NCBI RefSeq assembly: GCF_000427685.1
Contig: NZ_KE386573.1
Location: 1,286,938 to 1,350,937, forward strand
DNA length: 64,000 bases
Direction of reading: 5' to 3'
Source of the DNA: Haloplanus natans DSM 17983
GTDB taxonomy: Archaea > Halobacteriota > Halobacteria > Halobacteriales > Haloferacaceae
Numbering within the stretch: position 1 is the stretch's first letter; each line of letters starts with the position of its first letter. The position numbers and the translations under genes are program-made. Below, in pieces: positions 18,230 to 40,435 of this stretch. The notes beneath the pieces were generated by a model. That model had not been told where the DNA came from, made no database searches, and worked only from the letters and a program-made list of their open reading frames with translations.

Positions 18230-18298
18230 TCGGGTGAGCGTTACTCCGGACGGGGTCAATAGTTAGAGTAACTCATTCTTCGGAATCAGTTTCTGTTA

Positions 18299-19367
18299 GA
18301 GGGTGTCATAGAACGAGTAGCACACCAAAGAGCAGGGTGGACGCTGAGGTGGAATGAGTTCAGCGACCCTGCAAGACGACCCTTCGGTAGAGACGTTCTT
18401 CAATGTCGCGGAGACCGAGACCCTAGCGTTGTTTGAGCATCTCTCCTTCGAGTTTCTCGAAGAGTTCGACGTGTTCGCCCCGGCGGAGACGGGGCGAACA
18501 CGAGAGCACGAGCCACCAGAGCTGATGCGTGGCTTCCTCCACTGCTACTACAAGGACATCTACGGGATTCGTCCGGTTGAACGAGAGCTTCGGAACACGG
18601 TTGTCTGGCTGAGTTGTGGGTTCGATCGACCGCCGTCCAGAGACGCGGTCGATCGCTTTCTCACCGACCTCGAACACGTCGTTGACGAGGTGTTCGACCA
18701 CCTCGTCGAGCAGGCCGCTCGGCGCGGCCTGCTCGACTTGACCTACTGCATCGATTCGACCGATGTGAGGGCGATGCCCGCCGATCAAGATGCGTCGAAG
18801 TGCTACGATCCAACCGACGACGAATACTACTACGGCTACGGCTGTACGATCGTCTCGACCGGGCAAAAGATCCCGATCGCAGCGGAGTTCACAGAGAGTA
18901 AGCAAGCACCAGAGGAGACGGCGATGCGCGTCACGCGTGACGCGCTCGCCGTCGAACAGCCGATCTGGATGGTCGGTGACAGCGCCTACGACACGCTCGA
19001 CTGGCACGACCACCTGCTGGCCGCAGGTGTCGTGCCAGTCGTTCCGTACAACCCACGAAACACCGACGACCCGAAAGACATCGAATACAGGGTCGAAGAC
19101 CGCATTGAACAACACAGCGAGGACGTTCAACTGAAGCAGTCCACGTTGGATGAGACGTACAACCGCCGTACTGGAGTCGAACGAACCAATGAATCAGTGA
19201 AGGACCGCGGCCTCGGGCGAACGCACGCCCGAGGCCGCGTCCACGCACGGGCGTAAGTATTCCTCGCGCTGTGCCTTCGCCTCGTTGTCGCTATCACCAA
19301 CTACGAACGCGGAGACAATCCGGGAAGCACGATCATCACGGTGTGAGAAGAGTTCTATGACACCCTC
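18299..19367 (+). mobile_element. ISH11-like insertion sequence (IS5 family), 1069 bp
   Basis: Perfect 16-base inverted repeats GAGGGTGTCATAGAAC occur at 18299-18314 and, inverted, at 19352-19367. They frame a single transposase frame. Size and protein match what I remember of ISH11. No clear target duplication is seen, and the gene on the right side starts abruptly at the IS edge, so one flank may have been lost. Confidence 0.85.
18354..19346 (+). pseudogene. ISH11-like transposase with late nonsense codon
   Basis: The DDE transposase frame (MSSATLQDDPSVETFFNVAE) contains IDSTDVRAMP and VGDSAYDT for the two Asp and GVERTNESVK for the Glu region. It stops at TAA, 19254-19256, after GRVHARA. 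Reading on in the same frame gives VFLALCLRLVVAITNYERGD and a normal end at 19346 within the right repeat region, so the TAA is probably a mutated Gln codon (CAA). The last 30 residues are lost; the catalytic residues remain, so partial activity cannot be excluded. Confidence 0.8.
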
Positions 19368-20681: not shown

Positions 20682-20939
20682 GTCATCTCTTGATCTTGTC
20701 GGTGCCGATGGCTTGGATCACCGCGGACTACTTCGGACATAATCTCTATCAGCGGTCATGGCTCATCTCATTATCCGAGATATTGATAAACACCGATCAT
20801 TTCGTCAACTTCCAGCTATCGCACCGAACTGAAGGTTCCGGCAGTCCTTCGGATTTGCGCTACCAGAAGTCGTCCGCCCGGCTCCCCGTGGCAATGATAA
20901 GCCGGTATAACTTAATCCCCCTCTTGTGTGGCTGTGGGT

Positions 20940-23483: not shown

Positions 23484-23489
23484 TATCAT

Positions 23490-24734
23490 ATGACATCCAT
23501 CTCAGGTGGAGCGTCAACGATTGAACTCAAGGAGCATGACCAATCAGAACCACTCGACTTGTCTGAGGATGTTCTCGATACTATCGACTCTAGGATCAAC
23601 GAGTCCACGACGCGATTGGATTACGAGTATACCGAGAATGGGTGTGTCCGGCTCCAGACATCGTCGTACGTGGGTCTCGTTGCGTTGCCGGACGGGAGAC
23701 AGATCCGAATCAGACCGAAAGCTGCAGGTGGGAATTTCCTGCGGCTCTTGTTGTATGCTCATGGCGCGACAGCGGCAACGATAGATGATACAGTAACAGC
23801 GCTTCAAGGAGAATTGTTTTTAGATGCAATTGGGTCACTCTTTCTGGATCGTTTGCAGGAAGTCGTCAAGCGTGGGCTCGGAAAGGAGTATCTGACGACA
23901 GAAGCGCGAGAGGAGTATCTTCGTGGCCGCCTCGACGTCCACCGACAGTTGTCCCGTGGGAACGTGGCGACGACCAAGTTCGAGATTGAGTACGAGAAGT
24001 TGACACACGATACGGTTCAAAATCAAACGATCCTCTACGCGACACATCTGTTGACCCGGCTGGTAACTAATCGATCTCTACAAGGTGCGCTCAGACAACG
24101 GGAACAGCAACTTCGACGGGAAGTCACATTACGGCCGGTACAAGCCTCGGAGTTAGAGACGATCCATTTGGATCGTCTTGACGCGTACTACGAAGATATA
24201 CTTCGCCTTTCGCGTCTAGTTATCCAATCAATATTCGTGGATAATCTGCAAGGTGGGGCTCAAGAAACCTATGGACTGTTAGTAAATATGAATCGCATCT
24301 TTGAGGCAGTCGTAGAGCGTGCTGCGATAGATGCGGTCTCAAGAAAAGACGAGTGGCAAGTCGAAGGGCAGGCGCAGGTTAACGGGCTCGTCACCGGGGG
24401 GCCGCCCAGCATAAATATGTATCCTGATTTTGTACTCCGCGATCAACAGGGCACGGTACAACTTGTAGGGGATGCGAAATGGAAAACGGGGCGACCCAGT
24501 CAATCAGACATCTACCAAATGACGTCCTACCAACTGGCGGACGACGTTTCAGGACTACTTCTCTATCCCTCACAGAACGGGGCTATGGAAACGGAATACC
24601 AAGTTGATGACCGATTATCACTGCATCTCCGAGAATTACCTACTGGACAAGATGCTGCAAATTTCACAACCTTCGTTGCAGAATTGTCAAATGCAATAGC
24701 ACGTGAATTTGCACGACTTACCTCGTATCCGTAG
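23490..24734 (+). CDS. mcrC: McrC-type nuclease subunit
   Basis: McrC partners McrB and cuts DNA. The 414 residues start with a beta-rich domain (VRLQTSSYVGLVALPDGRQI, near 50-75) typical of McrC N-termini that contact the McrB ring. They end with a PD-(D/E)XK nuclease domain: MYPDFVLRD near 310 and LVGDAKWK near 327 give the Asp and the Asp-x-Lys. Both active-site elements are intact. It is the second gene of the mcrBC operon. The two genes are more AT-rich than the ribosomal genes, in line with transfer. Confidence 0.9.
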   Translation: MTSISGGASTIELKEHDQSEPLDLSEDVLDTIDSRINESTTRLDYEYTENGCVRLQTSSYVGLVALPDGRQIRIRPKAAGGNFLRLLLYAHGATAATIDDTVTALQGELFLDAIGSLFLDRLQEVVKRGLGKEYLTTEAREEYLRGRLDVHRQLSRGNVATTKFEIEYEKLTHDTVQNQTILYATHLLTRLVTNRSLQGALRQREQQLRREVTLRPVQASELETIHLDRLDAYYEDILRLSRLVIQSIFVDNLQGGAQETYGLLVNMNRIFEAVVERAAIDAVSRKDEWQVEGQAQVNGLVTGGPPSINMYPDFVLRDQQGTVQLVGDAKWKTGRPSQSDIYQMTSYQLADDVSGLLLYPSQNGAMETEYQVDDRLSLHLRELPTGQDAANFTTFVAELSNAIAREFARLTSYP

Positions 24735-25170: not shown

Positions 25171-27231
25171 ATGTCTGACCATTCATCTATCCGGCAGTTC
25201 GACGGGACGCTAGTCACGGCACAGTTCGGGGACAAAAACGTCGAACGGACAGCACGGGACGAATACCGGACGCTTCTCGACGAGCACGATTCTGTGGATG
25301 TGCTCGTCATCACGGGTGCGCCGACGAGTACGGATACGTTCAGGGAGACGTTAGGTGAGGACCTCCCCGGTGCGGCGACGCCGTACGTGACCTCTCTCGT
25401 CGTTCAGGCGACCGATGTCCTCAATCAGACCGACGATCGCGTCATCCTCTCCGACGCGCTACGGCGAGAACTCCTTCACCGATTCCTCGAAGACTACGAG
25501 TGGGAAACAGAGTACCTTCAACGGGCGTCTGAACAGCCGCCGTTCATCGAGGACGTGGACGCCGTAATGAGCACGATCTCCTGGCAGACAGTCACACCCG
25601 AAGAAACCCCGGAACTCCGTGACATCACGGCTGCGCTCGATGCGTTCCACGAGTGGCTGGCCGAACACGGTCACATGGAACGCGGGCAACTCATCTCGGA
25701 AGCGCTCGATGTGCTCTCCGGCGATGCCCGCGGCGATGTCGTCGATTTCGAGGCGGTGCTCGCAGTCGAGTTTGAAGAGTTCTTTCCGCTCGACCGTGCG
25801 TATCTCGACGCGCTCGCAGGAAGCTGTGACCTCGTCTGTATCGCCGAAGAGAACGCGAGTGTACGCCGCACATGGGTCGAGACAGGGCCCGTTACGGACT
25901 ACGTCTCCTTCAACGAGTCCCGACACGGAGCGTCAGAGACGCCGTCGACACGACCGGCTGCCACAGCAGCGTATTTCGCCGACGAGGCGGTCCCGGAAGA
26001 CCCAGAAACTGGATCGGTGTCCGTCCTCGCTACGGACTCCAGTGACGAGCAACTCGCCGAGGTTGCCAACGAGATCGAAGCCCTCGTCGGGCAGTCGTGC
26101 TGGAAGTACGATGACATCGCTGTCGCCACGAAGCAAAGTGGGAGTACCGTTACGGACACCATCGAAGCACTCGAACGCGCTGGGATTCCGACGGAATCGA
26201 CGACCGTGACTGGGTTCGGTGATGACCCAGCGATTCGGGAACTCCTCGCTGCCGTTCGACATCTCGCCGCAGATGGGGAAGATGAGAGACCCGATCATGG
26301 CCCGGACCTCGATACGGAGCGCTTGGATCGCGTCAGCGAGATAGACAGCCTCGAAGAGGGGGTCCGCTGGTGGGCGACGGATTCGGGGTTGAAAGAGCGA
26401 ATCGCGGAGCGCGCGACGCCGCTGGACGCACGGGCGCAGTTCGGGAACGTCAAGCGGGCGTTCCGGATGGCGGAGTTCCTCGAAGATACTTCGTTCGTAG
26501 ATGCGACATGGGCGTCCTTCGAGGAGATGCTCGAACGCGCCCACGAGTACGCACCGCAACAAAACCAGACGAGTGCGACGGAACTCGACGGTGGTGTCCG
26601 CGTAGACCATCTGCAGGCGATTAAGAACGAGTCGTTCCGTGCGGTGTTTCTCGTGAACCTCGTCGATAGCGAGTACCCGGGTGACCCGTTCCTGACGCGG
26701 TTGTTCCCGACCGAGCGGGTCGCGGCGATGCCGGACTACCCCGGTGTTACGGACCTCGACGAGCCGGACGTGGATTCGACGTTCCCGACGAGGTCAACGG
26801 CGTCGAGTCGACCGTTCGCGCGGTATCACACGGAACACGCGCGGCGACGCCTGGCGATTGGGGCTGGTGCTGCGGACGAGCATCTGTACTGTTGTCTGTA
26901 CGAGTTCGAGGACACCGCACTCGAAGAGCGTGCGCAGGCGTCGCGGTTTCTCACAGAGGTGTACGACCGCCTGCCGTGGGTCACCGACGCCGACGATTCC
27001 CACATTACGAGCGAGCAAGCGGCAGAGGACTTCCTGTTGTCGCGGGTTGACGACGCGCTCGCGGCGGTTCGTCGCGCGAACAGTCAGGACGTGACGGTGT
27101 CGCTCGACGAGGTGGAAGCTGAACTCGGTGAGATTCAGGATCTGCTCGATAAGAGCGGTGCGCGCGGGGAGGACCTTCGGCGAGCGTTGCGTGCGCGTGT
27201 CGAGTTCGCTAACGGGGAGGTGCGGCGATGA
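25171..27231 (+). CDS. AddB-like inactive-helicase subunit of a helicase-nuclease complex
   Basis: The 686-residue protein has the layout of AddB/RexB-type UvrD-like proteins: an N-terminal region without Walker A Lys, a 1B/2B-like helical middle, and a late region GGVRVDHLQAIKNESFRAVF with VNLVDSEYPGDPF, which matches motif V/VI-like segments of the family. The nuclease domain that ends bacterial AddB is absent; it is supplied by the next gene, which overlaps by four bases. It probably acts as the structural, DNA-scanning partner of the true helicase at 28130-31567. Function is inferred from layout and operon. Confidence 0.65.
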   Translation: MSDHSSIRQFDGTLVTAQFGDKNVERTARDEYRTLLDEHDSVDVLVITGAPTSTDTFRETLGEDLPGAATPYVTSLVVQATDVLNQTDDRVILSDALRRELLHRFLEDYEWETEYLQRASEQPPFIEDVDAVMSTISWQTVTPEETPELRDITAALDAFHEWLAEHGHMERGQLISEALDVLSGDARGDVVDFEAVLAVEFEEFFPLDRAYLDALAGSCDLVCIAEENASVRRTWVETGPVTDYVSFNESRHGASETPSTRPAATAAYFADEAVPEDPETGSVSVLATDSSDEQLAEVANEIEALVGQSCWKYDDIAVATKQSGSTVTDTIEALERAGIPTESTTVTGFGDDPAIRELLAAVRHLAADGEDERPDHGPDLDTERLDRVSEIDSLEEGVRWWATDSGLKERIAERATPLDARAQFGNVKRAFRMAEFLEDTSFVDATWASFEEMLERAHEYAPQQNQTSATELDGGVRVDHLQAIKNESFRAVFLVNLVDSEYPGDPFLTRLFPTERVAAMPDYPGVTDLDEPDVDSTFPTRSTASSRPFARYHTEHARRRLAIGAGAADEHLYCCLYEFEDTALEERAQASRFLTEVYDRLPWVTDADDSHITSEQAAEDFLLSRVDDALAAVRRANSQDVTVSLDEVEAELGEIQDLLDKSGARGEDLRRALRARVEFANGEVRR

Positions 27232-28133
27232 GCCGGGAATCCCTCTCGCCGTCGCGGTTGGCGACCTACGCGACATGTCCCCGACTGTACGATTACCGGT
27301 ACGTGCAGGACGTGAACGCGCCGGACCGTACCGAACTCTACCTCAACCAGGGGACGATTTACCACGAGACTATCGAGGACGTGTGCGAGGCGACCAGCCG
27401 CGACGACGACCCAGAAGTGATTCACGACCGGGCGCTGCGGATTTTCGACGCGAAGTGGGACGAACACAGCAGTGCGGACGACTACGAATCACGAGCACAC
27501 CGGGAGTACCAACGTGCTGAGAACCGGGCTGCGATAGAGTCGTTCTTCGCTCCCGATGGCGGCGTCGGCATCGACCACGCTCGCCACTCAGTCGCTACGG
27601 AGTGCTGGGTCGAGTGCGAAGTAGATGGGCGAGGGCTCCACGGGAAAGCAGACAACGTTATCCGGACTGACGACGGCCTGCACATCTTCGACTACAAGCG
27701 GAACACACGCGGAATGCTCTCCGACGGGACAGCCGAGTACCTCGGCGACCATCTCGACGGGGAGGCGCACGAGCCGAAGCGCGTGCGAAACGCGTTCCAG
27801 ACGGCAACGTACATCGAGGGTGTGAAGGACGAACCGTTCTACGAGGATGGGATGGAGGTTCGATTCAGTTTCTACGGCCTGCTCAACAAAACGTCGTTCG
27901 AGAGCACTCCCACCGGATACGACGTGTCCGCTCGCGGGTGGTCACGAGAAACGACTGAGATTTACGACGATCACTACGACACGATCTGGGCACTCATTCG
28001 CGCTACACACGACGGCATCACGAGCGAGGCCTACGAGCCGGAGCCGTTCGAGCTCATCAACGAGGAGGCATGCCCGGACTGTGACTATCGAGAGATGTGT
28101 GCGGACCGCTTGTCGACGGAGGTGCGCCGATGA
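27228..28133 (+). CDS. PD-(D/E)XK nuclease with Fe-S cluster motif (AddB/Cas4-like)
   Basis: The 301-residue RecB-family nuclease has the full motif set: TCPRLYDYRY (Cys17), GTIYHETIED with the His, GRGLHGKADNV with the Asp, IFDYKRN with Asp-x-Lys near 155-160, and QTATY. Cys282, 285 and 291 (CPDCDYREMC) together with Cys17 make the four-Cys Fe-S site of AddB and Cas4. It corresponds to the detached C-terminal nuclease domain of AddB. It overlaps both neighbours by four bases, so the three proteins are probably made together. Confidence 0.85.
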   Translation: MSRESLSPSRLATYATCPRLYDYRYVQDVNAPDRTELYLNQGTIYHETIEDVCEATSRDDDPEVIHDRALRIFDAKWDEHSSADDYESRAHREYQRAENRAAIESFFAPDGGVGIDHARHSVATECWVECEVDGRGLHGKADNVIRTDDGLHIFDYKRNTRGMLSDGTAEYLGDHLDGEAHEPKRVRNAFQTATYIEGVKDEPFYEDGMEVRFSFYGLLNKTSFESTPTGYDVSARGWSRETTEIYDDHYDTIWALIRATHDGITSEAYEPEPFELINEEACPDCDYREMCADRLSTEVRR

Positions 28134-31100
28134 GCGACGACAGTGACGAGCACCCGTCGTGGTTCCCGGTCCCGGAAGAGGACGTCTCCCCAGAGCCCCA
28201 GCAGCGGGCCATCATCGATTCGGACGCGTACCCGATGCGAGTGCTCGCCGGGGCAGGGACGGGGAAGACGTTCACGATGGTGCGCAAAATCGAGCACCTC
28301 ATCGACGAGGAGGACGTGTCCCCCGACCGGATTCTCGCGTTGACGTTCACGAACAACGCCGCGGACTCGATGCGTGAGAAACTCAACGCGAAACTCGGCG
28401 CGGCCGGGTACGACATCGACGCGTACACGTATCACTCGATCTGCAACGAGATCCTCACCGACTACGCGTACGAAGCAGGAATCGACCCGGACTTCGAGGT
28501 CGCCACGGACGCCGAGAAGTACGCCATTGTGCTGGACGTTCTGGACGACATCAAGTATCGGTCGGTCAAACCCAACGTGTACGGGAGCGACGGGTACGCG
28601 TCAGGAGCCGCGTCGAAGCTGCTCGACTTCATCGGATCGATGAAACGCAGCGGCATCACGCCCGACGACATCGACGCTTTCCTCGGCCCTGCCGACCGCG
28701 TCTACGAACTCGCCGATCTCTCGGAGCGCGTCGAGAACATTGCCAGCGACCATCTCGGCGGCCGGTCCGTGTCGAGCGTGCTGGATTCGCTTCCAGACGC
28801 ACGCGCTGACCTCGTCGCTGAGCGCGACGCGCTCGGGACAGACGGAATGGAGGCCAGCGTCCACGACTTCATCGACCGCCTCGTGGATCTCTGCGACGAG
28901 CTGGAAGCAGCGTTCGAAGCCCACGAGACAGGCGACCGGGAGTTACCGGAAAACGCGTACAAGCTCCCGAAATACCTGCTCGGAGGGTACGCGAGCGGTG
29001 CGCCGACAGGCATCCCGGACGACCTCGATCTCGAACTCACCGACCACCTCGACTCGTTCCTCTCGGACTGCCTCACGGCCCGAGACCTGACGGCGGGCTA
29101 TGCGGCCTACGAGCGTGAACTCGACGAGCGGGACCTCATCGACTTCGACGGCCTCGTCGTGGAGACGGCCGCACTGATGGACTCGCCGGTTGGCGAGGAA
29201 ATCGCTGACCGATGGGACTACGTGTTCTGTGACGAGTTCCAGGACACCGACCGGCTGCAGTTCGACCTCGTCACGTCGCTGGTCACCGACGACAACCTGT
29301 TCGTCGTTGGTGATGACGATCAGGCGATCTACGAGTGGCGTGGCGCGAACGTCGCCAACATCACTAACGAACTCGACCGCGCGTTCGCCGCGCTCGAAGA
29401 TGAACCGTTAGAAGAGAACTTCCGGTCCCGACAGCCGATCCTCAACCTGGCGAACGAAGCAATTCAGAAGCTCGACCACCGCGAACGACACAAGACACTG
29501 CAACGCGTCGACGAACCCGAGTACGATGGCGACACCGTCGCCACCGTCGAGCTCCCGGACGATGACGATGCGGACGGCGCGATCCAGCTTCGCACCGTCG
29601 TCCAGAATCTGCTGAGCGGCGCAGCAGACAACCTCGACGAGGCGTACGACCCGGGCGACATTGCCCTGCTTGTCCGGAAGAACGACCACGCGAAGCCGGT
29701 CATCGAGGAGTTCGAGGATGCCGGCATCCCGTACCAGGTTGCTGGTGATCTGGCTACGGAATCAGTCGGCGTCGGCACCGTGACTGCCTACCTGAAGGCG
29801 CTCGCACGGCCCGAAGACGAGGTGAGCTGGAATCGCATCCTCCTGATGCGGTACCGGCTCTGCGATGCGGATCTCCGTACGCTCAACGCGGGCGACGACT
29901 CGCTCGTTGACACGCTCCGCGAGACGCCACTCGACGAGTTCGAGGACCCCGACCGCGTCGCGGAGGCCCGTGAGCACGTCACGGAACTGCTCGATATTCG
30001 AGACTCGGCGTCGCTCAGTCACCTATACCGCGAGCTTACGGACATCACGAACATCGAGTGGTACCTCAGCGAGCAGGAACGCCGAGACCTCGCCCAGCTG
30101 GAGGACGTCATCGAACAGTACGGGGACAGTGCCGTCCAACCACCGCTCACGCCGGCATTCATCGATTCACTCGAACACTACGACTCCCTGTTCGACGAGA
30201 GCGGCTCGACACCGACGAGTCAGCCGGACGTCGCCGACGACGCCGTCAACGTGATGACCATCCACAAGAGTAAGGGCCTGGACTTCCCGGTCGTCCTCAT
30301 CCCGCAAGTCACCGCCGACGAGTGGTCACCGAGTTCACGTACCTACGACGCACTCGAAATCGGCCTCTCGGACGGCCCAGAGGTGGCGTTCGCAGAGGAC
30401 TTCGTCGAACGTGACGCCCGCGAAACCCGTCGTGTGTTCCACGTCGGGATCACACGCGCCGAGGACATCCTCGTATTGCAGGGTGGACGAGAGGAAGCCG
30501 ACCCCGACGAAACGCATCCGATGGTAGAGGCGGTCGACGGCATTCTGCCATCCCGAACCCCGTGGGGACCGGAGCGGGGGAACCTTCCGATCTGGACCGA
30601 CGTGCAAGCATGCCTCCCGGACGAGGCGGTCGACTGGAGCGACACGCTGGCCAGCGAGACCGTCGGGAAGATCGGCGGCACAATCAGACACGACGGCGAC
30701 GAACTCTCGGTCGAGGGAGCGCCCGACCGCCTGTTGAACCTCGCAACGGCATCCATCGACGGAGACCTCACGACGGACGGTGAGCGATCGACGCTCCAGG
30801 TCGAATCGTTGACTGGGGCCTCGGCACCGTATCCGTCGATCTCACACAGCTACACGTCGCTGACGGCCTACGAGGAATGCCCGCGCAGTCATTACCTCGA
30901 ATACGTGGTCAACGCTTTCCCCGACTATCGGAGATCCACACGCGATGATGAAGACGGCGTGTCACAACGCGATATCGGCGTGCTCTTCCACGACACTGCG
31001 GAGCAAGCCGCGAACCGGTCGATTCGTGATCGGGACGCGTGGTACGAAATCTGCGAACGACTCGCCAGCCAGCGCCGAGCGGAAGACGCACTCCCGGCTG

Positions 31101-31567
31101 CGAACGCGTGCATCGATCGGTACTTTGAGTTGGCGTTGAGCGATTACGAAATCGTGGACGCGGAACGAGAGTTCGAACTCGATCTTGATGGACACGAACT
31201 CGTGGGATACATCGACGCCGTCTACCGGCTGCCAGACGGTGAGTTACTCGTCATCGATTACAAGGCGACCGAACGGTATCGGAACCTGCAGGAGGATAAG
31301 CAACTCCCGATCTACCTGTTGGCCTGCCGCGACCTGTACGACGAACCAGTCTCACGCGCAGGCTACGCCTACGTCGGCGACATCGGACCGAACGTCGAGA
31401 CGCGTTCGTTCGACGAATCGGAACTTCGTGCGGTTGAGGACGACATCGTGACCAAGATGGATAGAATCTCGAATTCGTCGTTCGAAGAGTATCGCGACGG
31501 TGAACACTGCCAGTGGTGTCGACACAACCAGCTTCCGTGTGCCCCACCATCGCTACGGAGCGACTGA
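28130..31567 (+). CDS. AddA-like UvrD-family helicase-nuclease
   Basis: The 1145-residue protein is an SF1A helicase: Walker A VLAGAGTGKTFTMVRKIEHL near 40, Walker B FCDEFQDTDRLQ near 367, GDDDQAIYEWRG near 400, NVMTIHKSKGLDFP near 711 and FHVGITRAED near 770. The C-terminal RecB nuclease domain shows CPRSHYLEYV (Cys near 916), GYIDAVYR, LVIDYKATE near 1044, and CQWCRHNQLPC, which completes a Fe-S site. ATG 28130 overlaps the previous stop (ATGA); a longer frame from 28097 is rejected. With the two genes before it, it forms an AddAB-like double-nuclease motor for DNA-end processing, in repair or in destroying foreign DNA. Confidence 0.88.
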   Translation: MSDDSDEHPSWFPVPEEDVSPEPQQRAIIDSDAYPMRVLAGAGTGKTFTMVRKIEHLIDEEDVSPDRILALTFTNNAADSMREKLNAKLGAAGYDIDAYTYHSICNEILTDYAYEAGIDPDFEVATDAEKYAIVLDVLDDIKYRSVKPNVYGSDGYASGAASKLLDFIGSMKRSGITPDDIDAFLGPADRVYELADLSERVENIASDHLGGRSVSSVLDSLPDARADLVAERDALGTDGMEASVHDFIDRLVDLCDELEAAFEAHETGDRELPENAYKLPKYLLGGYASGAPTGIPDDLDLELTDHLDSFLSDCLTARDLTAGYAAYERELDERDLIDFDGLVVETAALMDSPVGEEIADRWDYVFCDEFQDTDRLQFDLVTSLVTDDNLFVVGDDDQAIYEWRGANVANITNELDRAFAALEDEPLEENFRSRQPILNLANEAIQKLDHRERHKTLQRVDEPEYDGDTVATVELPDDDDADGAIQLRTVVQNLLSGAADNLDEAYDPGDIALLVRKNDHAKPVIEEFEDAGIPYQVAGDLATESVGVGTVTAYLKALARPEDEVSWNRILLMRYRLCDADLRTLNAGDDSLVDTLRETPLDEFEDPDRVAEAREHVTELLDIRDSASLSHLYRELTDITNIEWYLSEQERRDLAQLEDVIEQYGDSAVQPPLTPAFIDSLEHYDSLFDESGSTPTSQPDVADDAVNVMTIHKSKGLDFPVVLIPQVTADEWSPSSRTYDALEIGLSDGPEVAFAEDFVERDARETRRVFHVGITRAEDILVLQGGREEADPDETHPMVEAVDGILPSRTPWGPERGNLPIWTDVQACLPDEAVDWSDTLASETVGKIGGTIRHDGDELSVEGAPDRLLNLATASIDGDLTTDGERSTLQVESLTGASAPYPSISHSYTSLTAYEECPRSHYLEYVVNAFPDYRRSTRDDEDGVSQRDIGVLFHDTAEQAANRSIRDRDAWYEICERLASQRRAEDALPAANACIDRYFELALSDYEIVDAEREFELDLDGHELVGYIDAVYRLPDGELLVIDYKATERYRNLQEDKQLPIYLLACRDLYDEPVSRAGYAYVGDIGPNVETRSFDESELRAVEDDIVTKMDRISNSSFEEYRDGEHCQWCRHNQLPCAPPSLRSD

Positions 31568-31792: not shown

Positions 31793-33181
31793 ATGAGGGT
31801 AGGTATGGGTGAGAATATCCTAGAGTTGGATACGGAACGGATAGAGAACTTCATCGACCGGTATCTGGAGCTCGAACGCCGAGCCCAGCAGCCGTATGGC
31901 GTGTTTTCGTTCCTATCCGGGCGTCGGGAGAAAAAATATCAACAGACACTCGAGTATTTCTTGGATCCGAACAAGCCACACGGTTTCGGGGACACGCTTC
32001 TGGAAGTGTTCTTGGAGGTTGTTGGTGCCCCTAAATTGAATCTTGCAGCCCAACATGTCGAAATCGAGGAAGAGGTACACGTCGCAGACGACGATTCCGA
32101 GGGTCGTATCGACCTCGTCATCTGTGGCGGGCAGGCTCTGGATGACCACCCAGACTGGGCAGTCTTCCTGGAACTGAAAGTCGGGGCCGATGAGAACGAG
32201 AATCAGACACCAACATACGCCGCAGCAGACAATTGGCAATTCACGTGGTTCGACAGAACCGAAATCACGGTCGACGAACTCGACGAAACCTATGTCTACG
32301 TGAAGAAAGCGCAGGCAAACCCGCCTGAATCCTGCGAATTCGACGCGGTTGATTGGAGGACAGTCGCAGAAACATTCGATCATCGACTCCAGGGCTCGCT
32401 GTTCCAGTACCCGAACCGAAGCGTCATCCAGCTCACCGATTTCATTCGATCGCTACAGGAGACTGAGAACATGGACTCACCACTCGACGAAGACGAACTC
32501 GCCGAACGCCTCAAACTGTTCTTCGAATACGACGACGTCATCCAGCAGGTGGAACAAGCGCACAGGCAGTTCGAGAACGATTTCGACGACGTCAGCACCC
32601 ACCTCACAGCTCGGTGGGGAGACAGAATTCGGGACCGGTTCGATGTGGCGGAGTCCGGGTGGAAGATTCGGTCGAACGACAGCCCGAAGTGGCAAGGATT
32701 GATGCCGGAGTACTGGGATCAGGACCCGTTTGGCTGGGATAGTACCGTCGCACTGTACTTCCGGATCCCATCCACGACTGAGCACCTGCGAAAGCAAGAA
32801 CTCTCGTTCCGGTTGCGGCTGCCACCGCAGCGCAAAGTCCACAAGCAGACTTTCGAAGGAGATAGATCGTTCAATAGCGTGTTCACTGGGAAGTGTACAG
32901 GGGAGTATGAAGAGGGCATCCGTGTAGAGCTAGAGAAACTGGACGTGGACGAGATTACCCTAGGGAGGGCTTCTACGCTGTTCACCAAGACCTACGACCT
33001 CGATCCAGAGAACTTGGTCTCGTCTTATTTCGCCCAGGTTACTACTGCCGTCGACGAGTTTTGCAGTGAGAGTTCACAGTTGTTGAGGCTCCTGAACTCG
33101 GTGTTCGAAGAATCGTACGAGGACGTGTTCGGTGAACCGCCGGCTGGTGAGTTCTCAGGTACTCTGTCGAAACGGGAGTAG
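31793..33181 (+). CDS. PD-(D/E)XK nuclease superfamily protein
   Basis: The 462-residue protein has an N-terminal nuclease fold: KKYQQTLEYFLDPNKPHGFG (near 44-63) opens the domain, and GRIDLVICGG near 104 with AVFLELKVGADENENQ near 124 provide the Asp and the Glu-x-Lys followed by Gln. This matches the PD-(D/E)XK group common in prokaryotic defence islands. Residues 230-462 form a separate helical and beta region of unknown role. ATG at 31805 (MGENILELD) is an alternative start. It is a single gene, convergent with the PIN-like gene. Confidence 0.75.
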   Translation: MRVGMGENILELDTERIENFIDRYLELERRAQQPYGVFSFLSGRREKKYQQTLEYFLDPNKPHGFGDTLLEVFLEVVGAPKLNLAAQHVEIEEEVHVADDDSEGRIDLVICGGQALDDHPDWAVFLELKVGADENENQTPTYAAADNWQFTWFDRTEITVDELDETYVYVKKAQANPPESCEFDAVDWRTVAETFDHRLQGSLFQYPNRSVIQLTDFIRSLQETENMDSPLDEDELAERLKLFFEYDDVIQQVEQAHRQFENDFDDVSTHLTARWGDRIRDRFDVAESGWKIRSNDSPKWQGLMPEYWDQDPFGWDSTVALYFRIPSTTEHLRKQELSFRLRLPPQRKVHKQTFEGDRSFNSVFTGKCTGEYEEGIRVELEKLDVDEITLGRASTLFTKTYDLDPENLVSSYFAQVTTAVDEFCSESSQLLRLLNSVFEESYEDVFGEPPAGEFSGTLSKRE

Positions 33182-33221: not shown

Positions 33222-34253
33222 CTATTCTTTCAGTTCCTCGTACGACTCGACGATCGAGAGATCGCCCACTAACTTCTCGTCGAGTTTCGGACTGCGCGCA
33301 TCGAGCTCGACCCGCTCGTGTTGCCAATCCAGTTCGTCCTTACCGCGCCACACGCCGTAGACGGTCACGCTCGGCAGTTCGACGACGCCGAACACGATGG
33401 CCAGCATGTAGAGCAACAGTTCGACATCGCGCCACGTCGCCGTAGTTTTGTCGGGGAGCTGATCGGGAAAATCGACACGCTGACCGAGCAGTCGATGCGC
33501 CCGCGCCCGTTCGACGAAGTTTCGATCGTTGCTGAACAGCAGGATATCGCTCCGATAGTCGCGATCGTACTCGTCGTACGCAGCGATGATCTCCTCGTCC
33601 CCCTGCTCGCTCTGCACTTCGACCGCCTGCTCGATGTCCCGGATCCGCCGATACGTAAGCAAGCCGAGGCGGCCGATGCGCGCCGAACCCAGTGGCTGGT
33701 TCCAGTACTCCTCGTAGACGGGGCCGAACGCCTCGACGAACGGATCGGTGTCGTGGCACTTGTCGTCCCAGGTCAGTTCGTCGCGAACACCAGTGGCGAG
33801 CACGAACCCGTTCACGTCGCCGACGCTGTCGCCGCCGTGAAGACCGAGCACGCGGTCGATCCGCCACGGCATGAGGTTCGTGTCGAAGCCAGCGAACGCG
33901 GGGGGATGCCCGGCCATCAGATCCGGATCGCCGTAGCGATTTAGGAACGTCTCGACCTCGTCGCGATTGGCGATGTCGACGATCCCACTCGCCAGAATCG
34001 CCTTGAGATACTCGTCTACCGCAGGGAGATCCTCGTACACTCGTTCCGGGTACTGACGGCCGATCTCTTCCCGTGCCGTCGCGTACTTCTCGACACCACT
34101 CGAAAACTCGATCGTCGCGTCGTCGCTGCCGCCGAGATCGACTGTCAAGAGTTCGCCGAGTTCGTCTGAAGGGTGTTCGACGGCGAATCTCGCATCGCCG
34201 CGATCGGCGAGTCGGTTCAACAGGATCGTGAGGTGCTCCCGTTTGATCCGCAT
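33222..34253 (-). CDS. PIN-like nuclease, partner of a CARF-like protein
   Basis: The 343-residue protein has a region of unknown fold (1-115) and then a PIN-like domain: FAGFDTNLMPWRIDRVLGLH (Asp124), FVLATGVRDELTW (Glu159) and DILLFSNDRNFVERARAHRL (Asp243). These acidic residues and the SNDRNF pattern are the PIN active-site layout. The C-terminal half ends with a hydrophobic helix (LYMLAIVFGVVELP). Its ATG overlaps the stop of the CARF-like gene (TGATG), so both are probably translated together. I infer an RNase or DNase controlled by the CARF-like sensor. Confidence 0.7.
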   Translation of the reverse strand: MRIKREHLTILLNRLADRGDARFAVEHPSDELGELLTVDLGGSDDATIEFSSGVEKYATAREEIGRQYPERVYEDLPAVDEYLKAILASGIVDIANRDEVETFLNRYGDPDLMAGHPPAFAGFDTNLMPWRIDRVLGLHGGDSVGDVNGFVLATGVRDELTWDDKCHDTDPFVEAFGPVYEEYWNQPLGSARIGRLGLLTYRRIRDIEQAVEVQSEQGDEEIIAAYDEYDRDYRSDILLFSNDRNFVERARAHRLLGQRVDFPDQLPDKTTATWRDVELLLYMLAIVFGVVELPSVTVYGVWRGKDELDWQHERVELDARSPKLDEKLVGDLSIVESYEELKE

Positions 34254-34723
34254 CAGAACACCTCCGTGAAGTCGATGAGTTCGATGGCCGGTCGGGGAAT
34301 CGTCGGAAACGACTCGCCGAAGTACTCGCCGTCGACGTGCGTGTAGTAGAGGTGGTCGACGTCGTACTCGAAACCCGCCCGGAAGCTGATGATCGACCAG
34401 AACTTCCGCCCGGGCGTGACGTCGATGGCGACGCTCGCGGCCGCGTCAGTGCTGGCTTCGAGCGCCGTCTTCAGATACTCGATGATCGCCTGAAAGTCGC
34501 GCTCGTCGGCGATCGTCTCGACCGTGATCGACGGCTCGCTCCCGCCGTGAGCGGTCACGACCGTCTTCATGAGCGATGTCGCGGCGTCGGTCACGTCCGC
34601 GATCACCGGATTGTTGAGCACATAGATGTCGGTCGGCACGAACTCGTCGTGACACGCGGCGGCGAGTGGATTCACCACGGGTGCGACGCTCGTGCTTCCG
34701 TTCGTGATCCACACCCGTTCCAT
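34253..34723 (-). CDS. CARF-like ligand-sensing protein
   Basis: The 156-residue single-domain protein shows the CARF pattern: a first strand and loop MERVWITNGSTSVAPVVNPL, a second strand TDIYVLNNP, a helix after DERDFQAIIEYLKTALE, and the hallmark loop AIDVTPGRKFWSIISF (101-110), like the TGGTK loop that binds cyclic oligoadenylates in CRISPR type III effectors. The strand VDHLYYTHVD follows, as in Card1/Can2-type CARFs. The ATG at 34723 is chosen because it starts directly with strand 1; a GTG at 34762 is possible. There is no CRISPR array or cas gene in the window. Confidence 0.65.
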   Translation of the reverse strand: MERVWITNGSTSVAPVVNPLAAACHDEFVPTDIYVLNNPVIADVTDAATSLMKTVVTAHGGSEPSITVETIADERDFQAIIEYLKTALEASTDAAASVAIDVTPGRKFWSIISFRAGFEYDVDHLYYTHVDGEYFGESFPTIPRPAIELIDFTEVF

Positions 34724-34881
34724 ACGCCACTGCAGTACGGCGACTGTGTTAACGATTTTCACAGTGCGTTTCGACTGGCACTACCGCCCACGCCCCAGCT
34801 TGACCCTACTACTTTGTACGGCGGACACGATGACCCGACACCGGCGTGTCGACGGTGACGACACGCGGAGGATGATTCTCG

Positions 34882-35811
34882 ATGAAAGCCACTGATCGTG
34901 CCGAAGGCGCCTTACTGGGACTCGCGTGCGGCGATGCCCTAGGTCGTCCGGTCGAGTTCCGATCACCACGGCGTATCGAACGGGAGTACGGACGACTCGA
35001 CGAGATGGTGGGCGACGGCACCCATCGCAAACCACCAGGCACCATCACGGATGACACCGAACTGGCGCTTCGGATCGCCCGCAGTCTCGTCGAGACGGGC
35101 ACGTTCGACGGCGCGGACGTCGCCGACCGGTTCGTCGAGTGGTACCGGAGCGACCCGTTCGACATCGGCGGGCTCACTGCCGACGCTCTCCGACTGATCG
35201 ATCAGGGACACGCGTGGGACGATGCTGGACAAACCTGCTGGGAGGCGCGTCCGGAGGGACAGAACGCGGGTAACGGAAGCGTCATGCGCTGTGCGCCCTA
35301 CGCACTCGCCTTCGATGACGACGCATCCGCGCTGGTGACTGCGAGTACGGCCTCCTCTCGGATCACCCACGCCGACCCGCGGTGTACGTACGGCTGTGCC
35401 GTGCTGAACCTCACGATCGCGAATTGTCTGCATGACCGCTCGCAACCGCTCGCGGCCGCGCTGGAAACTGTCCGTGCCGACGCCCCCGACGAACTCGTAG
35501 ACGCGCTCGAACCGATCGTTGCGGGCGCGGAACCAGAGCCGCTCTCGAACAGCGGCTACGTCGTTCACACGCTCCAGACGGCACTCTACGAGGCATTCAC
35601 AGCCGAGGAGGTCAGTGAGGCGATCGTCGCCGCGGTCAATCGAGGTGGTGACGCCGACACGCTCGGCGCCGTCTCCGGGACAGTCGCAGGAGCCCGATTC
35701 AGCGCGTCGTCACTCCCGCCTGCGTGGCGCGATGCGATCGACGAGGCCGCCGAGCTTCGTGACCTCGCCCGCGAACTGTTCGAGGGAACGTATAAACCGG
35801 CGTCGTCCTGA
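34882..35811 (+). CDS. ADP-ribosylglycohydrolase family protein
   Basis: The 309-residue DraG/ARH-type enzyme would remove ADP-ribose from proteins or nucleic acids. Motifs: GALLGLACGDALGRPVEF near 9, TITDDTELALRIARSLVE near 54 (metal-binding TDDT), GNGSVMRCAPYALAF near 130, THADPRCTYGCAVLN and NRGGDADTLGAVSGTVAGAR near 253 (the second metal motif GGDADT). All metal ligands are present, so it should be active. It is divergent from the CARF-like gene with about 158 bases between them; a shared role is only suggested by position. Confidence 0.9.
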   Translation: MKATDRAEGALLGLACGDALGRPVEFRSPRRIEREYGRLDEMVGDGTHRKPPGTITDDTELALRIARSLVETGTFDGADVADRFVEWYRSDPFDIGGLTADALRLIDQGHAWDDAGQTCWEARPEGQNAGNGSVMRCAPYALAFDDDASALVTASTASSRITHADPRCTYGCAVLNLTIANCLHDRSQPLAAALETVRADAPDELVDALEPIVAGAEPEPLSNSGYVVHTLQTALYEAFTAEEVSEAIVAAVNRGGDADTLGAVSGTVAGARFSASSLPPAWRDAIDEAAELRDLARELFEGTYKPASS

Positions 35812-36822: not shown

Positions 36823-37794
36823 TCACTCAGCGTGGCGTGCTTCGATCTCGTCGCGCAGCCGACCGAGAACCGTCGTTTGCCACTGCTGATGGATTTCCCA
36901 TTCATCCATGGTTTCGAGGTCGAGCCCTTCCCGCTCGACGACCAGCTTGTATGGCGGCTCGCCGTCGGGCGTCGCCCACACCCACGTTCCGGTCGAACTG
37001 ACATTGCGTTCGATCTCGTCTCGACTCTCGATGAGCCGCTGGTAGAGTGTGGGCGGCGCTGCTTTACGAAAGTGAATTCGTACTTTGGAAACCTCGTCGG
37101 TCGAATTGACGACGAGTTCTGGCAGTACCCCGCTGACCGGAATGGCTCGCCCTTGCTTGTGAACCGCGCCGGAACGGGGCCGTACGTTCGTGTCGATTAC
37201 GTCGCTCGTCGACTCGTCGACGAGTTTTGCCCAGTAGCGTCGCTGATGTTGCTGGAGCGGCGATTCGTCATCCGAGCGTGCCGGCGTTTCGGGGACGACT
37301 CGATCAAAGCCGAGTGCACTGATATCGCCCGCATTGCTCCGTACGCTCGTCTCGACGACCTGCAAATCGAGCCCTCGCGTCTGCGGCGCAAGCCAAGCGA
37401 CGGTCTCGTAGATACGTGAGTCGAGTTCGGCATCGGTCAGCCACACGAGGACGTCAGCATCAGCGAGGTTTCCGTAGTGGATGAGTTTCCCGAGATGGTT
37501 CAGAGCGCTCGTCTTGTTGCGGTCGAACTGGGCCTCAACGACCACATCGACGAAACGCTCACCATCGTATCCCCGGGCGACGATATCCGCTCGGTATCCG
37601 TCGTACTCTCCATCATACGGCACCTCTGGTCTCAGGTTCCAGAGTTCGACTCCGATCGTCCGTTCGAGTTGGTCGTGGTACGGCTGGTGCGCGTCGAGTG
37701 CTTCGAGGTTCGCTCGACCAGCCAGCCACTTGGTGAACGATTCCTCGTCGCAGTAGTCTCCGACGCGGGCGGCGTAGGGTTCTCGCCGTGTCAT
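36823..37794 (-). CDS. PD-(D/E)XK nuclease-like protein paired with CBS-HEPN gene
   Basis: The 323-residue protein carries YRADIVARGYDGERFVDVVV followed by EAQFDRNKTSALNHLGKLIH near 68-103. The Asp, the Glu-x-Gln and the SxxHLGKL pattern resemble the DUF4268-type and NucS-like PD-(D/E)XK nucleases; Gln in place of the catalytic Lys occurs in that group. A C-terminal domain (VVNSTDEVSKVRIHFRKAAP, and WVWATPDGEPPYKLVVEREG) is separate. Its ATG overlaps the stop of the CBS-HEPN gene by four bases, indicating a two-gene operon. Confidence 0.65.
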   Translation of the reverse strand: MTRREPYAARVGDYCDEESFTKWLAGRANLEALDAHQPYHDQLERTIGVELWNLRPEVPYDGEYDGYRADIVARGYDGERFVDVVVEAQFDRNKTSALNHLGKLIHYGNLADADVLVWLTDAELDSRIYETVAWLAPQTRGLDLQVVETSVRSNAGDISALGFDRVVPETPARSDDESPLQQHQRRYWAKLVDESTSDVIDTNVRPRSGAVHKQGRAIPVSGVLPELVVNSTDEVSKVRIHFRKAAPPTLYQRLIESRDEIERNVSSTGTWVWATPDGEPPYKLVVEREGLDLETMDEWEIHQQWQTTVLGRLRDEIEARHAE

Positions 37795-38573
37795 TCGTTC
37801 TGCAAAGCCAGCAATTCATCGATAAGACTGTACTGATCCAGCAGATTGGTCACGGTTCGCCCGGACTCCGTGAGTCCCTGCTCCGTATTCTGCAGGATCG
37901 GCGTCGCGTGTGCGACATCGTTGCGCAGTTCGGTGACCGCACTGAGCCGGCTGCTCGCTTGGTGACCGGCGTCGAATCCGAGCGCCTCCGAGCACCGCTC
38001 GCTACTGGCGACGATCGTCACCAATGTCGAGAACTGAACGTAGTGAATCGGGTCGAGTGCCACTCCGGCTGCCTTGGCGTCAGCCAGACGCGAATCGATG
38101 TCATCTAACACGTCAGGTGGGATCGGTGCCGTCTCCTGCCACTCGGGGGCGTGCTCGAGTATCATCTCGCGAAGGATCTGCTCCAGTCGCGAGAGTTTGG
38201 TGTACAGGTGCTGATACACCGGTTCGGTATTGAGATCGGCACGAGTGAGAACTCCCGTGACTTCGCTCCGGTCCGCGAGGTAGTAGAACGGGCGCTCGTA
38301 CAACGCCTCCAACACTTCGTCCAGCGGCGCATCTCCGGCGATGAGTACGTCGACAGTAAGCGACTCTATGCTGTCATCGAGCGACGCATCTGCTGGGGCG
38401 TCTGCCACAGCATCTCGTGTCACGTACCCGACCGGACGGCCATCCTCGTACACCGGCGCCGAGTCGTAATCCCGGTCGTCGAGCCACTCCGCCGCCTGCG
38501 CCACATCACCCGCAATGGGACAGGATTCTGGATCCGGCGTTGCGATTACACCTGCAGTACAGGCATCCGGCAT
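37791..38573 (-). CDS. CBS-domain pair fused to a HEPN-like domain
   Basis: The 260-residue protein starts with two CBS repeats: YDSAPVYEDGRPVGYVTRDA at about 36-55 and ERPFYYLADRSEVTGVLTRA at about 93-112. CBS pairs usually bind adenine nucleotides. From residue 118 the protein is helical and contains ELRNDVAHATPI, an Arg-x4-His motif (Arg217, His222) that is the active site of HEPN RNases. This suggests a nucleotide-sensing RNase. It is the first gene of an operon with the PD-(D/E)XK protein. A TATA box lies about 26 bases before the ATG. Confidence 0.6.
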   Translation of the reverse strand: MPDACTAGVIATPDPESCPIAGDVAQAAEWLDDRDYDSAPVYEDGRPVGYVTRDAVADAPADASLDDSIESLTVDVLIAGDAPLDEVLEALYERPFYYLADRSEVTGVLTRADLNTEPVYQHLYTKLSRLEQILREMILEHAPEWQETAPIPPDVLDDIDSRLADAKAAGVALDPIHYVQFSTLVTIVASSERCSEALGFDAGHQASSRLSAVTELRNDVAHATPILQNTEQGLTESGRTVTNLLDQYSLIDELLALQNE

Positions 38574-38593
38574 AGTTCGTCCTCTGTATGGAT

Positions 38594-38603
38594 TCTTATA
38601 ATA
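38594..38603 (-). promoter_or_regulatory. TATA box of the CBS-HEPN operon
   Basis: CTATTATAAG on the minus strand is centred about 26 bases before the ATG at 38573. The distance predicts a leaderless transcript, usual in haloarchaea. Confidence 0.5.
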
Positions 38604-38649
38604 GCGACCCCAAAATTGATTACCTACAAAAATTAAATATGGGTTAGAA

Positions 38650-38982
38650 ATGCTCAGTAGGAATACTTATCTCGTCTACGACTGTATCCCGTACGACGAG
38701 GTATCGGAACTGCTTCCTCTCTCTTCGCTCCCCAGTGAGGCAGTCGTCCGCGACGCGGCCGCTGTCGAACTGGTCGAGACGATATCCAACGAGAGGATCC
38801 TCGCGGTGTCGCCAGTGAGCATGGCGACGGGATATTTACTCGCTCAAAAACCGTTCACGGTGGTGAAGCTCCACCGCCTCTCCAAAAAAAATACGACTCC
38901 GGAACTCAGCGACGGATACGAGGTGCTAGTGCTGGGTCGTCCCCGAGATCGTCGGAACCATTCACTCAGCGAGTACGCCTGA
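38650..38982 (+). CDS. hypothetical protein, 110 residues
   Basis: The frame MLSRNTYLVYDCIPYDEVSE has alternating strands and helices (ERILAVSPVSMATGYLLAQK, KPFTVVKLHRLSKK, DGYEVLVLGRPRDRR), so it is probably a small alpha/beta domain. The A/T-rich ACAAAAATTAAATAT at 38625-38639 may be its promoter. It is divergent from the CBS-HEPN operon. No family recognised. The 230 bases after it hold no gene. Confidence 0.5.
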   Translation: MLSRNTYLVYDCIPYDEVSELLPLSSLPSEAVVRDAAAVELVETISNERILAVSPVSMATGYLLAQKPFTVVKLHRLSKKNTTPELSDGYEVLVLGRPRDRRNHSLSEYA

Positions 38983-39209: not shown

Positions 39210-40435
39210 GGCTCTGTTGAAATCCTTAACAACTGATAGGAACCGCGTGCGGAATAGGGAGAGAGAGTGGATGCAGCAACACGACAATACCGGCCCTCTG
39301 TCAGCGCCAGACTCTGAGTTAGCTATTCGCCTCAACGAAGATCGGGTGAAACGTATCTGTAAGAGTCAGTAATTCATCCACGATCGCGTCAACATAGGTG
39401 TCAAAAGAACTATCTTGGATTACGGCTTCATGACCTATCTTCTTTGACCCGATATTCACCTTCCGGTCAAGACGCCATCTGTAGTCTGGAAGTGCCCCCC
39501 TATGCTCTGAAGCTATCGTTTTCAGCCACTCTCGTTCCGCCTCTGTAAGCTCGTCTAAACTTTTGATTTGTAAACGGACGGTCGTACGGCCTGTCGCCCC
39601 GGTTTCGCCGACAAAGACATCGTATCGGATCGCATCGTGATGCTCTGGATGTGTTGATTTGAACGAAGTACGTTTATTGTACCCTGTGTACTCGAGATCT
39701 CGTTCGAGATGTCGTATCTCCGTCTCACTCAGGAACTGGTCTTCAATTCTACGGAGCGTATCGGTTGCGTCGGCTGTATTCGACGTGCGTGATTTCGTCA
39801 GTGCCGCTTCAAACACAGACCCGAGGAAATCGCCACCATCGTATGAACCACTCTTGATTTGTTCAAGAACGTCCTCATAGTAGATGATCGAATCGAACTC
39901 TGCTTCATCTTCCGTTGATACGTAGCTCTCTGGGGCTAGCAAACAGACTGTGTACGAGTCCCAGCCGTCACGTTCGACACGGAACTCTCCCCGGTTGTAG
40001 TATCGTTCGATCTGGTTCGGTTGCTTCTCGGCGGAGATTTTGTTCTCCACCAGTACGATATGTCGATCTCCAGTCGATGTGAGGAATCCGAACTCAATAT
40101 CGGATTCACCTTCTCCGGCGTAACTCGCGTGTAGGACTCCCCCAATGTACCCTACGATATCGAGAGCGGAATCGGTCTGGGAGACAAACCAATGCCTAAA
40201 CGAATCAGAGGTCTCTACCAACTGAGCTACCGAAAAATCGACATCGTGCTCCCCCACACTTCCGAATGAGGTACCCTGTTCGATCTTCATGTGCGACAAT
40301 GTAGAGAGACGGTTGATGATGATTTCCCCCGATTGATCCGGTAAGTCTCTCCGGCGATACGCTTGGCCGACACACACCCTGTATTCCGCACTCTTACTGA
40401 ACCCTGTCAGTAACTGAGGTATTCAACAAGGCTCA
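39210..40435. mobile_element. nuclease gene framed by imperfect IS-like inverted repeats
   Basis: The left end (from GGCTCTGTTGAAATCC to GTGCGGAATA, 39210-39256) is found inverted at 40382-40435: TGTTGAA occurs at 39215-39221 and inverted at 40422-40428, and GTGCGGAATA at 39247-39256 and inverted at 40382-40391. The stretches between differ in length by five bases and are only partly alike. Between them lies one nuclease gene and no transposase. It looks like a transposon-end pair carrying a cargo gene, or a nested element whose transposase was replaced. Confidence 0.5.
39319..40290 (-). CDS. PD-(D/E)XK nuclease superfamily protein
   Basis: The 323-residue protein starts MKIEQGTSFGSVGEHDVDFS (ATG 40290; an upstream in-frame start at 40377 is inside the inverted-repeat region and is rejected). 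The nuclease core is GESDIEFGFLTSTGDRHIVL followed by VENKISAEKQPNQIERYY: Asp64, Glu82-Asn-Lys84 and Gln90. The C-terminal half is a second domain (GRTTVRLQIKSLDELTEAER and PDYRWRLDRKVNIGSKKIGH) that may bind DNA or a target. It is AT-richer than chromosomal genes. It lies inside the inverted-repeat unit, without partners in its operon. Confidence 0.7.
   Translation of the reverse strand: MKIEQGTSFGSVGEHDVDFSVAQLVETSDSFRHWFVSQTDSALDIVGYIGGVLHASYAGEGESDIEFGFLTSTGDRHIVLVENKISAEKQPNQIERYYNRGEFRVERDGWDSYTVCLLAPESYVSTEDEAEFDSIIYYEDVLEQIKSGSYDGGDFLGSVFEAALTKSRTSNTADATDTLRRIEDQFLSETEIRHLERDLEYTGYNKRTSFKSTHPEHHDAIRYDVFVGETGATGRTTVRLQIKSLDELTEAEREWLKTIASEHRGALPDYRWRLDRKVNIGSKKIGHEAVIQDSSFDTYVDAIVDELLTLTDTFHPIFVEANS

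Follow-up and report, generated by a model that had tools for sequence, protein, structure and literature searches.

DS-11, reported in the DefensePredictor study (PMC13092281, Science 2026), is an anti-phage system made of a single CBS-HEPN protein and validated in E. coli, and its defence is lost on replacement of Tyr157 in the CBS domain or of the HEPN catalytic residues. Anantharaman et al. 2013 (PMC3710099) had earlier predicted fusions of HEPN to CBS domains and proposed that they carry out ligand-controlled RNA decay. The architecture is thus already known and not new, and the remark in the original prediction that no named system has this make-up no longer holds.

The locus described here lies in the window, by which we mean the whole stretch of 64,000 nucleotides that was analysed. 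The features of the CBS-HEPN gene and its nearest neighbours are as follows, the small divergent gene being called c1.

34882-35811, plus strand: ADP-ribosylglycohydrolase gene (Pfam PF03747, 2.1e-72), 2 kb away and not in an operon with c1.
36823-37794, minus strand: DUF4268-like PD-(D/E)XK gene of the PADLOC PDC-S11 type, 323 aa (PADLOC and alignment).
37791-38573, minus strand: CBS-HEPN gene, 260 aa (open reading frame, Pfam, motif and AlphaFold2 model).
Residues ~6-58 of the CBS-HEPN protein: first CBS repeat (CBS1).
Residues ~64-115 of the CBS-HEPN protein: second CBS repeat (CBS2), in which Gly107-x-x-Thr110-Arg111-x-Asp113 is kept.
Residues ~117-259 of the CBS-HEPN protein: helical, predicted HEPN domain containing Arg217-x4-His222.
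38574-38649: AT-rich intergenic region of 76 bp between the divergent start codons of CBS-HEPN and c1.
38650-38982, plus strand: c1, 110 aa, found by clustering of the genes around CBS-HEPN, with which it lies head-to-head.

The two CBS repeats of the original prediction stand, as PF00571 exceeds the Pfam cut-off over two stretches of the protein (E 4.7e-8, 33.7 bits). CBS1 is degenerate. In CBS2, Gly107 and Arg111 are found in all 40 aligned homologues and Thr110 and Asp113 in 39 each; this G-x-x-T-R-x-D segment is what we take to be the usual nucleotide-contacting stretch of CBS domains. The C-terminal half contains the sequence LRNDVAH, spanning Arg217 to His222, with the arginine present in 40/40 and the histidine in 39/40 of the aligned homologues. 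R-x4-H is found in 65 of 67 distinct homologues; of the two exceptions, one copy (L068/L100) is disrupted at the motif, and the other (L176) reads LRNDVAY, with Tyr replacing His. Judged from these alignments, the conservation is far beyond chance and the motif is under selection. The disrupted copy, on a plasmid of Halorhabdus tiamatea (L100, 5864-9247), is split exactly 5' of RNDVAH by an insert of ~2.5 kb, so that the lost end lies 2.5 kb off, and its c1 is open.

Matches of the C-terminal half to HEPN-clan models are weak and below the Pfam cut-offs, but they recur: HEPN_RiboL-PSP matches 26 of the 40 members (best 0.0012), HEPN_Swt1 11 and Abi_2 six. The AlphaFold2 model, made with the 40 homologues, has a mean pLDDT of 91.8 and a pTM of 0.87, and shows the CBS pair followed by a confident five-helix domain (117-259), in which Arg217 sits towards the end of the 203-221 helix. 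In a Foldseek comparison of the whole model to the PDB, the top matches are CBS proteins, several of them bound to AMP, ADP, ATP or Ap4A; the HEPN half gave no HEPN match by fold among the best 50 matches listed, which were CBS proteins only. Taken together, the weak but convergent matches to several HEPN-clan models, the conserved motif and the five-helix model support the assignment of this domain as a predicted, RNase-like HEPN, in line with the motif reading that had been made from the window.

The resemblance to DS-11 begins with the domain order, CBS repeats and then HEPN in one protein, and it extends to the sequence. The NCBIfam model NF053863.1 spans both domains of the window protein (residues 22-225 aligned to model positions 92-287 of 305), and the DS-11 model matches 33 of the 40 haloarchaeal homologues, the best at 1.2e-9. 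However, the window protein scores 22.4 bits against an equivalog cut-off of 260 bits, lacks ~80 N-terminal residues of the model, and gives no match when the HEPN half alone is compared; this half by itself hardly matches DS-11. Because of this low score and the near absence of HEPN-half matches, the link to DS-11 is drawn from architecture and distant sequence similarity; membership was considered and ruled out on the same grounds, and the protein is kept as one that may work like DS-11. The bacterial relatives L188, L189, L192 and L193 were considered as DS-11 sequences on which Tyr157 could be mapped and were rejected, as they have no match to the DS-11 model at 0.01. With the fusions of Anantharaman et al. 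2013 (PMC3710099), the protein shares the domain combination and a presumed logic in which CBS senses a nucleotide and HEPN cuts RNA, although the published examples are bacterial, some carry an HD domain, and they came with neither a partner gene nor a defence test. A further difference is genetic: DS-11 is reported as a single gene without c1, whereas the haloarchaeal form has c1 head-to-head with it in 36 of 38 loci.

These loci come from a survey of 391 haloarchaeal genomes, in which canonical CBS-HEPN was defined as full-length with E of 3.5e-57 or better. Clustering of the surrounding genes revealed a single family with a recurrent position: its members, of 110-118 aa, lie on the opposite strand immediately upstream of CBS-HEPN, and this family is c1. 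This constant neighbour had been missed by the original prediction. In the 36 loci the two genes lie head-to-head within ~600 bp, and in the other two c1 is upstream in the same divergent orientation with inserted DNA between, 2.1 kb in one (G399) and ~8 kb in the other (G075). In Natronomonas gomsonensis c1 is absent within 6 kb but, oriented the same way, it occurs 12.6 kb upstream. By genome, both genes are present in 35 (or in 36 if G142, whose c1 is divergent, is counted), CBS-HEPN only in one (none with G142), c1 without canonical CBS-HEPN in 22, and neither in 333. Canonical CBS-HEPN without any c1 was therefore not found in the 391 genomes when the c1 of G142 is counted. The co-occurrence has a Fisher p of 1.1e-33, and the distances of the two families are correlated over 46 loci (Mantel r 0.944, a value reached in 0 of 2000 permutations); shared ancestry is ignored in both figures and inflates them. 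In the window, the 76-bp intergenic region must hold the promoters of both genes.

The c1 protein has no match in Pfam or PADLOC, and its model, an alpha/beta fold of fair quality (pLDDT 77.5), has no fold match in the PDB. Since the RNase-like gene is not found without c1 while c1 often occurs alone, c1 is possibly a partner of CBS-HEPN, as antitoxin or regulator, the word antitoxin being used here on the strength of this asymmetry. The arrangement resembles toxin-antitoxin systems of the HEPN-MNT type, in which an RNase-like HEPN gene is constantly accompanied by a small gene, and c1 shows the constant linkage of a small partner to the toxin gene that is asked of type II systems. It differs in that c1 is divergent and not co-operonic, no MNT or other Pfam family is recognised in it, and CBS-HEPN is a putative toxin. 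Should c1 indeed be an antitoxin or regulator, it would offer direct access to the way in which an RNase of this type is held off, and the haloarchaeal branch already adds to the bacterial one-gene DS-11 a small gene that accompanies the RNase-like gene with hardly an exception.

The reading that we favour, with moderate confidence, is that of a haloarchaeal DS-11-like, ligand-gated abortive-infection RNase with c1 as its divergent partner, the DUF4268 gene being independent of it. The CBS repeats would bind a ligand resembling an adenine nucleotide, with CBS2 the likeliest site, and a change of this ligand during infection would activate a HEPN dimer through Arg217 and His222. The activated HEPN domain would then cut RNA, and growth would stop. 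In the uninfected cell c1, expressed from the same 76-bp region, would keep the RNase off, most likely as an antitoxin or regulator.

It is possible, though we think it unlikely, that CBS-HEPN acts alone as DS-11 does, and that c1 belongs to an operon beside which CBS-HEPN settled, the promoter region being all that the two have in common. The operon in question consists of c1, c2 (89 aa, no family) and an ADP-ribosylglycohydrolase (c3), and it is found in many haloarchaeal genomes with or without CBS-HEPN across from it, for example at L036 (7608-9237), L138, L148 and L150. The palindrome AATGyyCATrGrrCATATAT is conserved upstream of c1 in loci of both kinds and is missing from the window clade, so that it is not specific to the pair; c1 must have some role without CBS-HEPN. 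The precedent of DS-11 as a one-gene system points the same way, as does the fact that no c1 adjoins the distant CBS-HEPN genes L041, L042 and L123-L127 or the bacterial L188-L193. This explanation has difficulty, however, with the constant presence of c1 beside the canonical gene, and with the window clade, which retains c1 even though c2 and c3 are not in an operon with it. It also sits poorly with the damaged copies, which are mostly of CBS-HEPN and not of c1. In a few cases (L043, L128 and L100) a broken CBS-HEPN lies next to an intact c1, and in G115 a truncated CBS-HEPN lies beside an open c1 frame; in L129 both are broken. The sole intact CBS-HEPN with a broken c1, in Haloquadratum walsbyi J07HQW1 (L177/G345), is in a genome with a second, intact c1 elsewhere.

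On its other side, CBS-HEPN overlaps the DUF4268-like gene by 4 bp (37791-37794, ATGA-type), as originally described, and because of this overlap the two are probably co-transcribed in the window. The nuclease assignment is also borne out. The protein matches PADLOC PDC-S11 at 1.1e-23 over nearly its full length (residues 17-320), while it stays under the cut-off for Pfam DUF4268 (19.3 vs 27 bits), and a D...E-x-Q core, a variant of PD-(D/E)XK, is aligned in ten sequences, namely the window protein and nine haloarchaeal homologues. In PADLOC this family is a single-gene candidate; CBS-HEPN is its neighbour in the window, and elsewhere in haloarchaea the two are not linked.

The original prediction had joined the two genes into one abortive-infection system consisting of a nucleotide sensor, an RNase and a DNase. 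The overlap makes this tempting, and remnants of the same junction in relatives whose CBS-HEPN is 68-71% identical to that of the window mean that the pairing predates this strain. Conservation of the pair across haloarchaea is nevertheless what is missing, in surveys of 99 and of 391 genomes, and this is an outcome that the original prediction had itself given as refuting it. Over the 391 genomes, an intact DUF4268 gene adjoins canonical CBS-HEPN in only one of the 38 loci, that of the window, and the one other close copy of the nuclease gene (in G047) is broken and unlinked to CBS-HEPN; the other haloarchaeal DUF4268 homologues do not adjoin CBS-HEPN. In the relatives just mentioned, the nuclease gene is reduced behind an intact CBS-HEPN to a remnant of 24-44 codons (Haloferacaceae archaeon XH8, Halobellus captivus, Halorubrum sp. 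CBA1125 and Haloarcula japonica), or is frameshifted and truncated (Haloquadratum sp. J07HQX50). Together with the single-gene entry in PADLOC, this makes a two-gene system very improbable. Because of these stubs and frameshifts, the joint transcript is read from the sequences as an ancestral accident of one clade, in which CBS-HEPN is kept without the nuclease, and by the same comparison the PDC-S11-type nuclease is a separate gene of the island, outside the conserved unit. In the favoured reading of a c1-partnered RNase, the nuclease would have joined the transcript in one lineage and be on its way to loss in relatives. Abortive infection itself remains the most plausible role from the sequence, given a CBS sensor fused to an RNase-like HEPN domain in a defence-rich island, and only the nuclease drops out of the system as first proposed.

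The surroundings of the locus in the window are rich in genes of defence type.

16934-19256, plus strand: phage-type integrase and DDE transposase, where the part rich in defence genes ends.
20928-24734, plus strand: McrB-like AAA protein (851 aa) and McrC (PF10117, 3.7e-52), forming a McrBC restriction system.
25171-31567, plus strand: run of three genes for a protein of 686 aa that has no match in Pfam, a PD-(D/E)XK protein of Cas4/AddB type, and a 1156-aa UvrD helicase with a C-terminal PD-(D/E)XK domain.
31793-33181, plus strand, and 39319-40377, minus strand: nuclease genes of PDDEXK_4 or PADLOC PDC-S26 type, flanking the CBS-HEPN region.
33222-34762, minus strand: split CARF/PIN pair, a CARF gene (PADLOC CARF_m1, 2.9e-56) overlapping by 1 base a gene that matches CARF_m1--CARF_PIN (9.8e-32).

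The integrase and transposase perhaps mark the border of a mobile island, and the three-gene run is possibly an AddAB-like or defence operon. The McrBC, CARF and PIN, and UvrD/PD-(D/E)XK genes fit, and support, a role of CBS-HEPN in defence. We also noticed that in Halosimplex salinum the CARF/PIN pair of the window recurs (L178, 395-1917), ~4 kb away from CBS-HEPN. Among the large neighbour proteins sampled at other CBS-HEPN loci, four of ten have a strong PADLOC match.

This context bears on whether CBS-HEPN might be a host regulator of RNA stability that responds to stress or energy charge and has no antiviral function. CBS domains sense AMP and ATP, the Foldseek and sequence matches include the ribosome-bound CBS proteins SriA and SriB of Methanosarcina, and ligand-controlled RNA decay is what was proposed for such fusions by Anantharaman et al. 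2013 (PMC3710099). Against such a housekeeping role, the distribution is patchy, with CBS-HEPN in ~1 genome in 10 and some copies on plasmids or disrupted; the neighbourhoods are variable and partly defence-rich, and a defence role has been published for the same architecture (DS-11, PMC13092281). We consider this explanation improbable. No phage-encoded copies of CBS-HEPN were found in the phage collection searched.

A gene for an ADP-ribosylglycohydrolase of the window's subfamily is found near CBS-HEPN at 13 loci, often as the third gene of the c1-c2-c3 operon. It was considered as an obligatory part of the system and rejected, given this limited number of loci and the occurrence of c1-c2-c3 without CBS-HEPN, and its link to the system is suggestive only. 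Its frequent presence does provide a testable guess at the signal. In its boldest form, which we regard as a long shot, haloarchaea would have a defence module built on a CBS-HEPN RNase gated by nucleotides, c1 would represent a new family of small partner proteins that restrain this RNase, and in many genomes the ADP-ribosylglycohydrolase would have joined the module. The CBS ligand could then be a signal derived from ADP-ribose or NAD, which the glycohydrolase would remove. If true, both the signalling pathway and the antitoxin family would be ones not described before.

Beyond the canonical family, distant bacterial relatives of CBS-HEPN occur in Nitrospirota, Actinomycetes and Lysobacter. 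Some distant CBS-HEPN proteins carry an N-terminal N6-methyltransferase-like domain (L042, 8514-10025; L044, 9067-10521; and L123-L127) with matches to PADLOC mad2 of up to 2.5e-14; no c1 adjoins them, and they are possibly MADS-like or modification-linked relatives. The genome of the window itself encodes a second, distant relative on another contig (L046, 8802-9611), a HEPN-like protein with the motif KFRNKVMH and an ADLN motif and with little CBS similarity otherwise.
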